Of a stretch of DNA of 64,000 nucleotides, positions 23,450 to 29,854 are shown one piece after another. Under the pieces are notes generated by a model. The model saw nothing but the letters and a program-made list of their open reading frames with translations, searched no databases and was not told the origin of the DNA. The stretch spans positions 186,001 through 250,000 of the forward strand of contig JAFXSE010000118.1 of the NCBI GenBank assembly GCA_017525855.1, read 5' to 3'. The stretch is from Bacilli bacterium (GTDB taxonomy: Bacteria > Bacillota > Bacilli > RF39 > UBA660). The first letter of the stretch is position 1, and every line of letters begins with the position of its first letter. A program made the translations under genes and the position numbers.

Positions 23450-23620
23450 TTAATTTAAAGGGCACATTTTTCCTTCTGTGATTCTTCTAAAACTAGAACC
23501 AACTGATTTACCAACATCAAAAAATATTTTTACTATTCCCGAAACAGCATTAATTATTGTACCAGAAATACTTGATCCTCCTATTATACTCTCCAATTTT
23601 CTATTATCTATTTTATTCAT
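23450..23620 (-). CDS. Double-glycine leader peptide 2, bacteriocin-like
   Basis: A 56-residue peptide. Residues 1-15 are a typical C39 leader, MNKIDNRKLESIIGG, with Leu at -7 and hydrophobics at -4 and -3 before Gly-Gly. The predicted 41-residue mature peptide is SSISGTIINAVSGIVKIFFD, then VGKSVGSSFRRITEGKMCPLN: an amphipathic helix with a GxxxG pattern, a basic tail and one Cys near the end. Its ATG overlaps the stop codon of the first peptide gene, with GAGG five bases upstream, so the pair is made together. Export and cleavage by the adjacent C39 ABC transporter is inferred. Antibacterial peptide or signal are the main options. Confidence 0.75.
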   Translation of the reverse strand: MNKIDNRKLESIIGGSSISGTIINAVSGIVKIFFDVGKSVGSSFRRITEGKMCPLN

Positions 23621-23768
23621 TACAACCTCTTGGATGAGTAAATCCTTCTAGTACTCCTGATATAAACACAGAAATAGTAGTAACAGCCAAAATAATACCT
23701 CCAAAAATACCAATTGAAGCAGCTCCACCTACTACGCCTTCTAATTTATTATTTTCTAATTTCTTCAT
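23613..23768 (-). CDS. Double-glycine leader peptide 1, bacteriocin-like
   Basis: A 51-residue peptide. Leader MKKLENNKLEGVVGG, then a very hydrophobic mature part of 36 residues, AASIGIFGGIILAVTTISVF and ISGVLEGFTHPRGCNE. It has glycine spacing (GIFGG) suited to helix packing and a single Cys near the C-terminus. GGAGG stands seven bases before the ATG. It starts two bases after the stop of the small membrane protein gene and overlaps the second peptide. The pair resembles class IIb two-peptide bacteriocins, but neither sequence matches one I know, and there is no obvious immunity gene unless the 23771 gene serves. Confidence 0.78.
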   Translation of the reverse strand: MKKLENNKLEGVVGGAASIGIFGGIILAVTTISVFISGVLEGFTHPRGCNE

Positions 23769-23770
23769 AA

Positions 23771-24151
23771 TCATTCCTCCCAACATTTCATAAATAATTT
23801 AAAAAAACTTTTTCTTCCTCCATAGACACTCATATCAACAACACTATCTAATTTTTTCATATTGCACTTTAACAACAAACTATCATAATTTTTATAATAG
23901 TTTTTTTCACGACTTATTATTTCAACATTAATTTTTAAAGAATTAATATACACATAAGGATTTTTTTCTAATTCCTTAACAATATATTTATCAACCACAA
24001 CATTATAGACATTATCAATTACCCAATTTGCTTTTATAACATAATAATTAGGTATATATTTCTTAAATACATTTATAAAAATAGAAATAGTTATCACAAT
24101 AATTACAAAATTAACTATAAACAAATTCTCATCCTTTTTATACTTCATCAT
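23771..24151 (-). CDS. Small membrane protein of the C39 export locus
   Basis: 126 residues, unrecognised. One N-terminal membrane helix (LFIVNFVIIVITISIFINVF), then an extracytoplasmic domain with YNVVVDKYIVKELEKNPYVY and a basic, Cys-containing end (KLFMKCWEE). It overlaps the end of the exporter gene by 14 bases and is followed two bases later by the first peptide. By position it could be an immunity protein, an accessory factor for export in place of the HlyD-type adaptor, or a peptide-modification partner. Nothing in the sequence decides. Confidence 0.65.
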   Translation of the reverse strand: MMKYKKDENLFIVNFVIIVITISIFINVFKKYIPNYYVIKANWVIDNVYNVVVDKYIVKELEKNPYVYINSLKINVEIISREKNYYKNYDSLLLKCNMKKLDSVVDMSVYGGRKSFFKLFMKCWEE

Positions 24152-26213
24152 ATACTTTTCCTTCTTTTAACTTTACAACTCTCGTATATAAATCCTTATT
24201 AATCATTCTATGACTTATAATAATAACTGTCTTATCTTTCAAATACCTAAACATATCAGTTAATATTTTCCTTTCCTGCTTTTCATCAATTTGACTTAAA
24301 GCTTCATCAAAAATAAAAATATTACTATTATTCAGTAGTGTTCTAGCAAGAATTATTTTTTGTCTTTCTCCTCCACTAAGACTTAATCCCTCATCATCAA
24401 CTAAAGTATTTAGTTTTGCATCCTTTTTATCAATTATTTCCTTTGCATTAGTAATTTCACATACCTTCTCTAAATCATCAAAACTAATATTTCTATCTAA
24501 AGTAATATTGTTTTTTATCGTATCTTTAAAAAGATGTTCATTTTGACTAACATAAGAAATTTCATTTCTAAGTATATCTAAATGATGATGATTGATATCA
24601 ATACCATTAATTTTAATACAACCAAATGGAACTTCAATATATCTCATAAGCATTTTCATCATAGTACTTTTACCACTACCACTATCACCATAAAAGAATA
24701 TTTTTTCTTTAGGTTTAATAATAAAACTTAAGTTATTAAATATATTATTACTATTAAAACCATAAGTTAAATCACGATACTCAACAACACCATTTAATTT
24801 TATTTCTTTAAAATAATTACTACAATTAAAATTTTCTTCCTTAATCATAAATAAGTTTTCTATTCTACTTTTAGAAATTCTATATTTATAATAATCACTG
24901 TATAAAGATAAAATCCTATTAAAAGAGCCAAAGTAGTATCTAACAATACTTTCCAAAACTATTATTATTCCAAGATTAATTTTATTATCTATCACTCTTA
25001 ATGAGAGCAGTAGGAAAAACAAGATATAAAAAGAATCATGTATAATCTCTTTTAATAAATTAGTAATTAAATTAGTAGTCATGACAGAATACAAACTATT
25101 TAAACAACATTCATATATTCTATAAAACTTACTAATTATTTTTCTTTCTAAATGTAAATTTTTAATTGTAGATTGCTTTTCTAAAGCCTCAATAAAAACA
25201 GTATTAACTTTATCAAGTTTACTCTTATATTTTTCTAATCTAGTCTTTATTACTCTATTACTTACAAGTTGGATAACAAAAAGTATAAAACTTAAGAAAA
25301 CAGTTATAATAAAAAGAATAATATTCTTATTAAACAAAACTACTATGAAAACTAAAACAACAAGTACATCTGCAGTAAAAGTTACTAATAAATTAGTAAG
25401 AAAACTTTTAATAGTATTTAAATCCTCCATTCTCGACATAATTTCACCAGTTGTTCTATTTTTATAATAAATGTAAGGAAGTAGAATAAGTTTATGATAG
25501 TATTTTTTAGTAATATATTCATCTAAAAGAATATTAAAAGTCATACTAGTTTTTTCTCTTAGAAAAGTGTTTAAGATTTTTAGAAAGTAAATTAAAATAA
25601 ATATATTGGTAATGATATAAATATTATTTTTCATTCCAATATTAATACCATTATTCAATAAGAGAGTAAAATGAAAACTACAAAGAATATTAAGACAAAA
25701 ACTAACAATAGAAAGTATTATTATATATACTAAATAACCTTTATTATTTAACGAAAATAACTTAATCCAATTTTTAACGGTTTTTTTTACTCCAATATTT
25801 GGCAATACTCCTTGATTTTTTAAATATATAAAGTTATAACTCGTTATTAAATTAAACTGAGAAAAAGACATTTTTATCTTCCCTTTATCAGGATCCATAA
25901 CTATTAATTGTCTTTTTATTCTATCTATTTGATATATAACAATAAAATGTTTCAAATTCTTATTAATTATTACATGAGCAATTAAGGGTAAATATTCATC
26001 CTTTATATCTTCTAATTTACCATTTAAACCATAAGCATCAAACCCCAAATCACAAGCTGCCTCTACCAACTTATAAGCATTCACACCACTTTTCGTAGTA
26101 TTTGTCTTTTCTCTTAAATACTCAATTGGAATATTTCCACCATAGTATCTAATAATAGAAAGTAAACAACAAACACCGCAATCCATATTACCATCCTGTT
26201 TTACTATCTCCAC
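24138..26213 (-). CDS. Peptidase-containing ABC exporter (C39) for double-glycine peptides
   Basis: 691-residue bacteriocin-type transporter that cleaves leaders and exports peptides. Residues 1-130 are a C39 peptidase: Gln6 (oxyanion), Cys12 in DCGVCC, His89 (KHFIVIY) and Asp107 (VMDPDKG). Residues about 150-430 form six membrane helices; the rest is the nucleotide-binding domain with Walker A GDSGSGKS, signature LSGGERQK and Walker B IFIFDEA. All catalytic residues are intact. It heads a four-gene unit with the membrane protein and two peptides. Resembles ComA, LagD and BlpA exporters. The upstream 24 bases are identical to those of comEA. Confidence 0.93.
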   Translation of the reverse strand: MEIVKQDGNMDCGVCCLLSIIRYYGGNIPIEYLREKTNTTKSGVNAYKLVEAACDLGFDAYGLNGKLEDIKDEYLPLIAHVIINKNLKHFIVIYQIDRIKRQLIVMDPDKGKIKMSFSQFNLITSYNFIYLKNQGVLPNIGVKKTVKNWIKLFSLNNKGYLVYIIILSIVSFCLNILCSFHFTLLLNNGINIGMKNNIYIITNIFILIYFLKILNTFLREKTSMTFNILLDEYITKKYYHKLILLPYIYYKNRTTGEIMSRMEDLNTIKSFLTNLLVTFTADVLVVLVFIVVLFNKNIILFIITVFLSFILFVIQLVSNRVIKTRLEKYKSKLDKVNTVFIEALEKQSTIKNLHLERKIISKFYRIYECCLNSLYSVMTTNLITNLLKEIIHDSFYILFFLLLSLRVIDNKINLGIIIVLESIVRYYFGSFNRILSLYSDYYKYRISKSRIENLFMIKEENFNCSNYFKEIKLNGVVEYRDLTYGFNSNNIFNNLSFIIKPKEKIFFYGDSGSGKSTMMKMLMRYIEVPFGCIKINGIDINHHHLDILRNEISYVSQNEHLFKDTIKNNITLDRNISFDDLEKVCEITNAKEIIDKKDAKLNTLVDDEGLSLSGGERQKIILARTLLNNSNIFIFDEALSQIDEKQERKILTDMFRYLKDKTVIIISHRMINKDLYTRVVKLKEGKVYDEV

Positions 26214-26220
26214 ATATCAT

Positions 26221-26244
26221 ACCTCCTATATGTATTATTCTAAA
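26221..26244 (-). promoter_or_regulatory. 24-bp block identical to the comEA leader
   Basis: On the minus strand TTTAGAATAATAC then ATATAGGAGGT, ending in the SD of the exporter gene. A T-rich tract (GTTTTTTTAGT) lies upstream in both copies. No sigma-A -35 at the right distance. Candidate for a shared alternative-sigma promoter. Confidence 0.55.
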
Positions 26245-26330: not shown

Positions 26331-26407
26331 GTTCACGTAGCTCAGCTGGATAGAGCAATCGCCTTCTAAGCGATCGGTCACGTGTTCGAATCACGTCGTG
26401 AACACCA
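26331..26407 (+). tRNA. tRNA-Arg(TCT)
   Basis: Seven-base acceptor stem GTTCACG / CGTGAAC, D arm GCTC/GAGC, anticodon stem ATCGC/GCGAT around loop CTTCTAA (anticodon TCT, reading AGA), T arm with TTCGAAT, discriminator A and an encoded CCA. Own promoter and a terminator follow. tRNA genes are frequent integration sites; here the exporter/peptide locus lies on the opposite strand directly next to it. Confidence 0.97.
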
Positions 26408-26469: not shown

Positions 26470-26643
26470 ATGCAAAAAAGAAATTTAGATATTAATTATG
26501 GTAATACAAATGAAGAGGAATTAGATGAAGGTTATACTTTCATAATACCAAACGACAAATATAAAAATATTAACATTAATTATAAAAAAGAAAAAGATAC
26601 GAAAAAGGAAACAAAAAAAAGAGATGAAATTAAGAAAAATTAA
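26470..26643 (+). CDS. Small charged hypothetical protein, 57 aa
   Basis: Open frame with a strong SD (AGGAGG, six bases before ATG): MQKRNLDINYGNTNEEELDE, GYTFIIPNDKYKN, then a Lys/Glu-rich tail. No known family, no membrane segment. Its 3' end overlaps the convergent YgjP-type gene by four bases. The SD and spacing argue for a real gene. Confidence 0.55.
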   Translation: MQKRNLDINYGNTNEEELDEGYTFIIPNDKYKNININYKKEKDTKKETKKRDEIKKN

Positions 26644-27278
26644 AATTCTTTCATCTCTTTTCTTATTCTCTTATAATTAGGGCAATTTTCTTCAACCAGA
26701 CTCCAAAAACCACTTGAATGGTTTGGATGAATCAAATGTGATAATTCATGAACTATAACATAATCTAAATATTTAGTATCTCTCTTAATTAATTCCAAAT
26801 TTAAAGTTACAGTTTTTAGCTTAGTATTACATACACCCCACCTTGTTGTCATTTTGCGTATTTTTAAATCAGGATAAGGAATTTTCTTTGAAAATCTATG
26901 ATAAATTAAATCTAAATGTTCTTGAAAAAGAGTTTTTGCTTTTTTCTTATACCACTTATCAATATCAATATTTTTATTTAAAAAAACCTTATTTTCACCA
27001 AAAGATATATCACAATACTCAGTATAAATAATATCATAGTTTTTACCTAGATAATTAAAATTTTCATTATTACTATTTTTTATTTCTTGTTTTCTTATCA
27101 TTTTAACAATAGAATCATAATTATCATTAAGTAATTTAACAATATCCTTATCTCGAGTAAAATAATTAGTTGTAACATAAATAGTCAAATCATCTTTTAC
27201 TCTTATATATGTATTTTTAGTAGATTTCTTTTTATCTATCAAAACAGGATATTTTATATTATCAATTAATACTTCCAT
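26640..27278 (-). CDS. YgjP-like metallopeptidase (DUF45)
   Basis: 212 residues. C-terminal half shows the DUF45 pattern: KKAKTLFQEHLDLI, KIRKMTTRWGVCNTKLKTVT, then the zinc motif VIVHELSHLIHPNHSSGFW (HExxH plus a third His). Cytoplasmic, no signal. Related to SprT-type proteases; its substrates in Firmicutes are unknown. Monocistronic by layout. Confidence 0.85.
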   Translation of the reverse strand: MEVLIDNIKYPVLIDKKKSTKNTYIRVKDDLTIYVTTNYFTRDKDIVKLLNDNYDSIVKMIRKQEIKNSNNENFNYLGKNYDIIYTEYCDISFGENKVFLNKNIDIDKWYKKKAKTLFQEHLDLIYHRFSKKIPYPDLKIRKMTTRWGVCNTKLKTVTLNLELIKRDTKYLDYVIVHELSHLIHPNHSSGFWSLVEENCPNYKRIRKEMKEF

Positions 27279-27340: not shown

Positions 27341-27367
27341 TAAAAAAGAAGAAATTAATTTCTTCTT
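27341..27367 (-). terminator. Terminator of the adhesin gene
   Basis: Perfect 22-base palindrome with arm AAGAAGAAATT, followed by six T's on the minus strand, overlapping the stop codon. Confidence 0.85.
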
Positions 27368-29798
27368 AAGATTTTCTTGTTATAGCCCTAATAGTAATAA
27401 ATGAACCACTTAACATTAAGAATATAGAAATTAAATAAACCCATACTGATGTTTTCTTACCTGTATTTGGTACTTTTATTTTAGGAGAATTATACATAAC
27501 AGCAGTTTGAATATCACCTGTTTCTTTTACTTCAAACTCTACTGTTTCTGTACTTAAAATATAACCCTCTGGAGCTATAGTTTCAGTTAATTTGTACTTA
27601 CCTGCTGGTAATTTACTAATTTCATGTGGCTTAGTTGTAGAAACCCATGTATCAATAACTTTATCACTACTATCCTTCAATACTAATTTAGCCCCTGCTA
27701 ACTCCTTACCATTAGTAAAATCTTTCTTAGAAATATTAACAGTAATAGGTTTATTAACAAGTTTTACAGTATCTAATGTACCTTGATCAGATATAACAAA
27801 CTCATAAGGACTACTAATATTAACATAACCTTTTGGTACTTTTAATTCCGTTAAAACATATGTCCCATTTTCTAATTCCTTAGTTATATGAATTTTCTCA
27901 TCACTAGTCCATTCATCTATTTTTGTTCCATCTTTCTTTGTTAAAACAAATTTAAATCCTTTAACCTTATTAGTATCAACTAATAATTTTTTAGAATCAA
28001 CAGTTAACGATACATAATTGTCTACCATTGAAACACTTTGAACTTTTCCAGTATTCTTTACTTCAAAAGTTAATTTATTACCATTACTAATATATCCTTG
28101 TGCAGAAGAAACTTCAACAAGTACATAATTTCCTGGTTTTAATGCCTTGAAGACCTTTTTACTAGTTGTTGTAATCCAAGTTTCTATTTCTTTTCCTTCT
28201 TCATCCATAAGTTTTAACTTAGCTCCTGGAATTAAAGAATTAGTATTTGAATCTACTTTAGCTATTTCTACAACTATTGCTTTATTAGAAATAACAACTT
28301 CTCTACTAGTATTATTTTCATCAAAAACAATTTTATGAGATGTATCATCTAAAACATATCCAACTGGAGCTTTTACTTCTTTAACATAATAAGTACCAAA
28401 TGATAAAGGCTTATTAATTAAATAAGTATTATCACTATCACTATTACCAGTTATAAAAGATATAACAGGGTTTTTCAAATCACCTTCTTTATAAACATTA
28501 ATAGTAGCTCCTGATACAAATTTAGTTGGATCGTCTTTATCAACTTTCTTAATTGATAATTCAATTTTTTTATCAACCATTGTTACTGTTTTATTAGAAG
28601 AAGCAACTACCTCTACATTTTTATCACTATCAATTAAATAACCACTAGGTGCTTCAAGCTCTGTAACTGTATATACTGTAGGTATAAGATTAGATAAAAC
28701 TATAGGAGTATTCGTTGTTATAACTTCCTTAGAATATCCATAGTTATTCTTAATAAGTAATTTTGCACCTTGTAAATTGTTATTACCCATATCATGTTTA
28801 ATAACAGTTAACTCTCCTGTTGGTGCAGTTAAAACAATTTCCTTAGAAATACTTTTATTAGTAGCTTCAACTGCTGCAACTGCCGCATCTTGTACATTAT
28901 CATCCTTTTGTTCAGGAGTATATAAATATGTATCTCTTTGAATATAATCAGCTAGCACTGTAATAGTAATCTTCCTGTTTGATTTCTTTTCAAGTTCATC
29001 AAGAGGAACTCTTAATACAAAACTACTAGAAGAATCTAATTTATTATTCTTAGTAACATCACCATTTACTACTTTTCTAAATACTGTACCACTTTGATTT
29101 AGTATTTCGTAATTTGAAACATCAATTGATACCTGATAATCTTCAAATGGATTATCTGAATTAACACTTATATTAGAACTAACTAAATAATCCTTACCAC
29201 TTATTCGACTATAACTTAAACTATTATTAGATGCACCAATGACAGGACTTGGTTTAACACCCTTTTCTTTAGCAGATAAAGCTCCATCAATTAAAGGCTT
29301 AATATAATTAGTATAATATGATGAAGAAATAATAGTTGACTTTTCTGAAGCAGTCAAAACTCCATTTTGTCCATCACTAACACCATTAGATCTATCTTGA
29401 TAAAACCATAAAGCTATCTGCGTTAAATAATACTTATCAGCATCACTTGCTCCTGTACCCTTCATAAAATCTGAAGAAGGAAAACCATTTAAAGCAATAT
29501 ATTGATATCCATTATTAAGAGGACTAGCAGACTTTTTAAATTTAACATTATTAGGCCATTCTTTTGCTTTATCCAAACAATAAATATTATATTCATTACC
29601 ATTATCATCTTTTAAAAACTTTCTAGAATCATCTATTCCTAAAAAAGTAACATAATCTAAAGACACCCCAGAAGTCATAATAGAAGGTAAAGAATTATCA
29701 ACTGCTAAAGATTTAGGAATATACTTCATAAAAAATACTCCTGTAATCAAAATAAAAAACACTATTGAAAAAGAAATTATCTTTCCAGTCTTACTCAT
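27366..29798 (-). CDS. Cell-wall anchored surface adhesin with thioester (TQXA) and Cna-B domains
   Basis: About 810 residues from the ATG at 29798, which follows AGGTGAT. A signal peptide (ISFSIVFFILITGVFFMKYI) is followed by a thioester domain: Cys74 in IYCLDK and Gln127 in LTQIALWFY could form the internal Cys-Gln bond that couples to host or surface amines. A jelly-roll-like region comes next, then five prealbumin-like Cna-B/SpaA repeats starting with variants of GAKLLIKN, ATINVYKEG, GAKLKLMDEEG, GFKFVLTKKDG and GAKLVLKDSS. The C-terminus has the sortase signal VPNTG at about 776, a membrane helix and a basic tail. VPNTG rather than LPXTG hints at a dedicated sortase, none of which is in the window. 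Confidence 0.9.
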   Translation of the reverse strand: MSKTGKIISFSIVFFILITGVFFMKYIPKSLAVDNSLPSIMTSGVSLDYVTFLGIDDSRKFLKDDNGNEYNIYCLDKAKEWPNNVKFKKSASPLNNGYQYIALNGFPSSDFMKGTGASDADKYYLTQIALWFYQDRSNGVSDGQNGVLTASEKSTIISSSYYTNYIKPLIDGALSAKEKGVKPSPVIGASNNSLSYSRISGKDYLVSSNISVNSDNPFEDYQVSIDVSNYEILNQSGTVFRKVVNGDVTKNNKLDSSSSFVLRVPLDELEKKSNRKITITVLADYIQRDTYLYTPEQKDDNVQDAAVAAVEATNKSISKEIVLTAPTGELTVIKHDMGNNNLQGAKLLIKNNYGYSKEVITTNTPIVLSNLIPTVYTVTELEAPSGYLIDSDKNVEVVASSNKTVTMVDKKIELSIKKVDKDDPTKFVSGATINVYKEGDLKNPVISFITGNSDSDNTYLINKPLSFGTYYVKEVKAPVGYVLDDTSHKIVFDENNTSREVVISNKAIVVEIAKVDSNTNSLIPGAKLKLMDEEGKEIETWITTTSKKVFKALKPGNYVLVEVSSAQGYISNGNKLTFEVKNTGKVQSVSMVDNYVSLTVDSKKLLVDTNKVKGFKFVLTKKDGTKIDEWTSDEKIHITKELENGTYVLTELKVPKGYVNISSPYEFVISDQGTLDTVKLVNKPITVNISKKDFTNGKELAGAKLVLKDSSDKVIDTWVSTTKPHEISKLPAGKYKLTETIAPEGYILSTETVEFEVKETGDIQTAVMYNSPKIKVPNTGKKTSVWVYLISIFLMLSGSFITIRAITRKS

Positions 29799-29854
29799 CA
29801 CTATCACCTATCCTAATATAAATTATAACATAATCACAACAATAAAAAAAGAAT

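Follow-up and report, generated by a model that had tools for sequence, protein, structure and literature searches.

A near-universal, mostly vertically inherited pair of double-glycine peptides with a C39 exporter in a bacterial order that is probably RF39

In this study, we describe a locus of four genes predicted to export two small double-glycine (GG) peptides, here called PepA and PepB, in a Bacilli bacterium (assembly GCA_017525855.1). The window, by which we mean the whole stretch of 64,000 nucleotides that was analysed, covers positions 186,001 to 250,000 of contig JAFXSE010000118.1, and the genes of the locus span window positions 23450-26213, all on the minus strand. On that strand the order is a C39-peptidase ABC exporter of the peptidase-containing ABC transporter (PCAT) type, with 691 amino acids (aa) and a GTG start (24138-26213), a 126-aa protein with one transmembrane (TM) segment (23771-24151), PepB (23613-23768) and PepA (23450-23620), the last two genes overlapping by 8 bp and forming the one peptide pair of the window. 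The PepB precursor (51 aa) has a GG leader (residues 1-15) followed by a hydrophobic helix with a GxxxG motif (G38-G42, 23643-23657) and a cysteine, Cys49 (codon 23622-23624). The PepA precursor (56 aa) has a leader of the same length and a cationic helix with a GxxxG motif (G37-G41, 23498-23512) and Cys53 (codon 23462-23464). An earlier note on this DNA had described two overlapping small genes with GG leaders and a single Cys near each C-terminus, directly after an intact C39 exporter and a 126-aa one-TM protein; the coordinates and the Pfam domains of the exporter agree with that description throughout. Both leaders end in Gly14-Gly15, and a cut after Gly15 would yield the 36-residue (PepB) and 41-residue (PepA) products that the note had given.

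The window exporter scores above the Pfam cut-offs for Peptidase_C39 (E = 6.3e-30), ABC_membrane (1.8e-31) and ABC_tran (1.8e-26). Its closest relatives in the Protein Data Bank (PDB) are 4ry2, an ABC-type bacteriocin transporter, and, next by name, 8hf7 (ComA); judged by sequence, the solved structures nearest to it are peptide-exporting PCATs. The residues that we take to be the catalytic Cys, His and Asp of the C39 domain, the Walker A Lys and the Walker B Asp are kept in all 45 of the relatives' exporters that were aligned, whose pairwise identity does not exceed 55%. A C39 domain with its Cys/His/Asp, an ABC membrane domain and an ATPase, which define a PCAT, are therefore found as domains in the window and as residues in all 45 relatives.

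Searching proteins with the two peptides gave, for each, near-identical copies plus a single other relative (69% and 66% identity), and one scan of species genomes found the same four genes at locus L001 in an uncultured Erysipelotrichaceae metagenome-assembled genome (G001). With G001 as the centre of the relatives search, the exporter (threshold E <= 1e-60) was present in 107 of 196 relatives, giving 108 matches; all of these loci were fetched and, together with the window, make up a set of 109 loci selected by exporter. PepB was found in 100 of them, PepA in 98 and both in 97, and the order exporter, PepB, PepA holds in 97 of 97 loci with both peptides. Twelve loci lack one or both peptides. 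Five of these (L073, L105, L111, L141, L142) end at a contig end, and four (L120, L123, L128, L145), from three genomes, are taken to lie outside the order, since none of G118-G196, the last relatives of the exporter search, is in the order sample searched with PepA (see below). In L107 and L135 a single peptide exceeds the threshold, its divergent partner falling short of it. At L081, PepB is truncated just past GxxxG and PepA was not found, possibly a decayed copy of the system. The earlier note had held that a lack of conservation of the two frames in relatives would count against it; both frames proved strongly conserved, as separate homologous peptides, at 97 loci.

To seed the profiles, 11 PepA and 15 PepB peptides were picked by eye, a choice that favours motif-bearing matches, and the alignments hold 97 PepA (A3) and 96 PepB (A4) sequences, the truncated PepB of L081 being left out of A4. 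Peptides for which trimming gave no canonical start were dropped (PepA of L042; PepB of L070, L095 and L122); alignment A5 omits four odd long open reading frames (ORFs; L049, L116, L140, L143), and alignment A6 comprises 54 sequences, namely the window, L001 and 52 of 110 search matches. The near-invariant columns are G14, G15, G37 (98%), G41 (100%), R46 (95%) and C53 (99%) in PepA, and G14, G15, G38 (97%), G42 (100%), P46 (98%) and C49 (99%) in PepB. GxxxG occurs in 95 of 97 PepA and 94 of 97 PepB, where shuffling the mature part would give 25.6 and 45.3, and both window peptides have it. The last 20 mature columns carry 2.57 and 2.67 bits, compared with 1.97 and 1.99 bits for leader columns 2-13, and the PepA and PepB profiles resemble each other over the leader and the first core residues.

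The mature part contains exactly one Cys in 93 of 97 PepA and 87 of 97 PepB, and both peptides have their Cys in 92 of the 93 loci where both were trimmed. The sole exception belongs to L121 (genome G049), where two complete PepB/PepA-like pairs stand in tandem at +449 to +1020 past the exporter: the first pair has both Cys, and the second is without the conserved Cys in both peptides (its PepB was counted as having one through a non-conserved Cys at most nine residues from the end, not the Cys of P-x-x-C). This joint loss, a single case, fits a disulfide between PepA and PepB and is no proof of one.

Of the genomes sampled from the order of G001, 359 of 385 have a match to the PepA profile and 181 of 193 have one to the PepB profile (both at E <= 1e-3). 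For comparison, ribosomal protein S8 was found in 184 of 193 genomes, in a sample equal in size and handles to that used for PepB (E <= 1e-5, as in the class and phylum searches); the order sample is itself an even sample of a larger group. Only three genomes (G220, G226, G286) are missed by both PepB and S8, and nine have S8 without a PepB match, so the misses are similar in number and differ in the genomes concerned. The pair is near-universal in the sampled order, about as widespread as a ribosomal protein. In the class sample PepA was matched in 52 of 395 genomes, of which 51 belong to the order sample and the remaining one, G120, is covered at PepA positions 1-30 only. In the phylum sample it was matched in 26 of 392, 19 of them in the order sample; the other seven matches, G120 included, are weak and lie within PepA positions 1-41, covering the leader and the beginning of the core. 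This order, one of small-genome bacteria, is probably GTDB RF39, an uncultured lineage treated in two papers (PMC10868615; PMC7301438) in whose main texts the word "bacteriocin" does not occur.

Descent was followed on a species tree of what we take to be thirteen S8-operon proteins from 51 genomes, 45 of which have a full exporter; the six without it were dropped from the trees. Of the 21 exporter splits with support of at least 0.9, the species tree contains 16, where shuffled labels give 0.14 on average and 2 at most; five conflict with a supported species split. Exporter distances correlate with those of the species tree at 0.439 and peptide distances at 0.448 (n=41), with 0 of 2,000 permutations as high in each case. 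Of the 86 loci having more than 2.5 kb downstream, 52 have an rpsU no more than 3 kb beyond the exporter on that side. The agreement of splits, the distance correlations and the rpsU neighbourhood therefore indicate that descent was mainly vertical, with some conflict, so that the system is inherited mostly vertically within the order.

Comparison with Pfam and NCBIfam placed neither peptide in an unrelated known family, which the earlier note had named as grounds for refutation. Window PepA matches PF10439 with E = 0.0065, short of the Pfam cut-off, and, in NCBIfam, two models of bacteriocins (E = 0.13 and 0.28); window PepB matches the unrelated PF13886 below the cut-off (E = 0.013) and has no NCBIfam match, TIGR03949 included. 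Across the relatives, TIGR03949 (class IIb, lactobin A/cerein 7B) matches 74 of 96 PepB and 14 of 97 PepA at E <= 0.01. When the PepBs of ten relatives were compared singly, six exceeded its cut-off of 21.5 bits, with matches covering leader and core, one reached 20.4 and three were unmatched at E <= 0.001. Searches of the PDB with PepA, PepB and one-TM profiles gave nothing, or leader-only and chance matches. No description of the system was found among the papers listed by literature searches on RF39 and bacteriocins, some of which touched on RF39 little or not at all and so test novelty only weakly; the 82,806 gut precursors of the IIBacFinder set (PMC12648078) may contain these peptides unnoticed.

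In 42 of the 97 loci a third small ORF of 39-62 aa, PepC, begins inside PepA, 5-21 bp from its end. The regular-expression search leaves 55 of 97 loci without PepC; a profile search adds it in L138 and L050, which were joined to the 42 when its presence was mapped, and the scattered presence suggests repeated loss, or search misses. The invariant Gly of the 42 are there by construction, the regular expression containing GxxxG; as a control, the motif was found in 42 of 53 small ORFs at the PepC position but in 6 of 4,023 at other places in those loci. PepC has no GG leader; its N-terminus is basic, it contains one hydrophobic helix, and at its C-terminal end a GxxxG precedes an Arg as in PepA. 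A Cys lies within the last six residues in 22 of 42. By hhalign, PepC aligns with PepA at 95.3% (E = 2.2e-8, 55 columns) and with PepB at 0.3%. PepC is the best candidate for immunity, a leaderless, membrane-anchored homologue of PepA that occurs in relatives and not in the window. Among class IIb immunity proteins, lengths down to 42 aa (CbnZ) are known and the number of TM domains is one to four; the clusters are said to encode an accessory protein in addition (PMC6957408).

The locus shares with class IIb bacteriocins such as lactococcin G, carnobacteriocin XY and lactobin A/cerein 7B three anatomical features, namely an adjacent peptide pair, GG leaders with a C39 exporter, and GxxxG in both peptides; in many relatives there is also a small membrane immunity candidate. 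It differs from them in being near-universal and mostly vertical across a whole order, in the one C-terminal Cys per peptide and in that the window is without PepC. As a rule, bacteriocins are mobile, specific to strains and patchily distributed, and the accessory protein of class IIb systems is usually larger than the very small protein found here. Gallocin A (GllA1/GllA2/GIP) likewise combines a Cys-bearing peptide pair with a third small immunity peptide, GIP, that is modelled as resembling its two peptides and is a proposed mimic of them (PMC10100652). Here, by contrast, PepC resembles PepA by profile, and the disulfides of gallocin A are intramolecular, an arrangement ruled out here by the Cys counts, each window peptide having one. 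With a single Cys in the mature part of 93 of 97 PepA and 87 of 97 PepB, any disulfide here would need to be intermolecular. Taken together, near-universal vertical inheritance, the single Cys of each peptide and a PepA-like PepC set the system apart from known class IIb bacteriocins. The Caulobacter Cdz system (CdzC/CdzD/CdzI) also has two small glycine-zipper proteins, type I secretion and a small TM immunity protein (PMC5380434). Cdz is alphaproteobacterial, and the likeness drawn here is one of description.

A possibly related group of proteins lies outside the order sample. Seven genomes of 0.7-1.0 Mb (L202-L208) have a GG-leader frame that weakly matches the first 30-41 residues of PepA (E = 5.3e-9 to 9.9e-6; 78-130 aa in the six that were read as ORFs), with no match to the window exporter at E <= 1e-5 within the 10-11 kb fetched. 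A gene that we take to be rplU (L21) starts at most about 530 bp downstream in L202, L205, L207 and L208 and at 1.5-1.9 kb in L203 and L206; none was seen near the frame of L204. These proteins are possibly mycoplasma-side relatives.

We consider it reasonably likely that this is a class IIb-like two-peptide secretion system that has become a mostly vertical core trait of one order. The class IIb-like layout proposed in the earlier note is borne out in its GG leaders, C39 exporter, GxxxG helices and paired C-terminal Cys. As a mechanism, the C39 domain of the exporter would cleave both leaders after Gly-Gly and export PepA and PepB, with the one-TM protein perhaps assisting as a miniature HlyD-like adaptor. 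Once exported, the two peptides would associate by way of their GxxxG faces and become inserted in a membrane; a disulfide between their lone C-terminal Cys residues would probably join them, so that their function is probably that of a membrane-inserting, disulfide-linked heterodimer. The pair would most likely permeabilise the membranes of competitors or neighbours, and in many species PepC may shield the producer by competing with PepA for PepB. A more specific form of this proposal, in which an order-fixed, disulfide-linked heterodimer opens the membranes of neighbours for competition or nutrients and immunity comes from PepC mimicking the pairing surface of PepA, is one that we put forward tentatively, as a possibility that may well turn out otherwise. 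Three points weigh against the class IIb-like proposal: immunity in the window is unexplained, there being no PepC and the role of the one-TM protein being unproven; neither the near-universal inheritance nor the one Cys in each peptide matches class IIb; and more than half of the loci have no PepC by the regular-expression search.

Near-universal inheritance and the loci without PepC would fit peptides directed at the producer's own envelope or that of its kin, acting in controlled leakage, lysis or nutrient exchange as a housekeeping trait of bacteria with small genomes, with PepC as a membrane-anchored partner rather than an immunity protein. Being about as widespread as a ribosomal protein and mostly vertical is what such a role would lead one to expect, and self-directed bacteriocin-like peptides are reported in the autolysis of Neisseria gonorrhoeae (PMC11798529). 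However, the anatomical hallmarks examined are those of two-peptide bacteriocins and PepC has the size of a class IIb immunity protein, and we regard a self-directed role as the less probable, if the strongest, of the alternatives.

The earlier note had seen no dedicated immunity gene other than the one-TM protein. With one TM segment and a place in the same operon, this protein does fit the range of TM domains reported for class IIb immunity proteins (PMC6957408). However, the protein is not encoded between the exporter and PepB genes at 23 of the 97 loci, its structural model is a beta-barrel with HlyD-type adaptor barrels among the matches (suggestive), and class IIb clusters are said to hold an accessory protein beside the immunity protein (PMC6957408). 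Comparison with Pfam returned rows of one member each, at E = 0.0046 or worse. Because it is absent from that place in 23 loci and its model matches are adaptor-like, an export accessory, suggestively a HlyD-like mini-adaptor, fits this protein better, and its assignment as the immunity gene is unsupported and unlikely.

A role of one or both peptides as secreted signals (autoinducers), which the earlier note had also entertained, gained no support and appears still less likely. GG peptides do function in both communication and competition (PMC7018657), but here there are two hydrophobic peptides, both with GxxxG, and no sensor-kinase gene among the neighbouring ORFs read, no kinase scan having been run. 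The mature C-terminal columns are more informative than the leader columns, unlike those of signals that diversify into pherotypes. Chance ORFs or a misread region, which very short genes in an AT-rich genome might bring to mind, can be dismissed, because the frames recur as separate homologous peptides at 97 of 97 loci with both, with GxxxG above shuffles, and are conserved with their motifs in about 100 divergent loci.

If the locus is indeed a class IIb-like system, a pair about as widespread as a ribosomal protein, in what is probably an uncultured gut order, RF39, would imply that bacteriocin-like peptides can enter the basic biology of a lineage. The paired single Cys predict a covalent PepA-PepB heterodimer, and immunity candidates homologous to one of the peptides, with 42 natural versions of PepC, make the competition model testable.

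As to the surroundings of the locus, a terminator search found none. A viral origin was set aside, since in one scan of viral contigs the exporter had no relative. Downstream of PepA are genes that we take to be rpsU, yqeY and yqfC/yqfD-like. Upstream of the exporter lie a tRNA-Arg(tct) on the plus strand (26331-26407) and a YgjP-like metallopeptidase on the minus strand (26640-27278); a ygjP match upstream of the exporter also occurs in 3 of the 108 fetched loci. Beyond it, an 813-aa surface protein (27366-29807, minus strand) has a thioester domain, SpaA-like repeats and, by eye, a C-terminus resembling a sorting signal.

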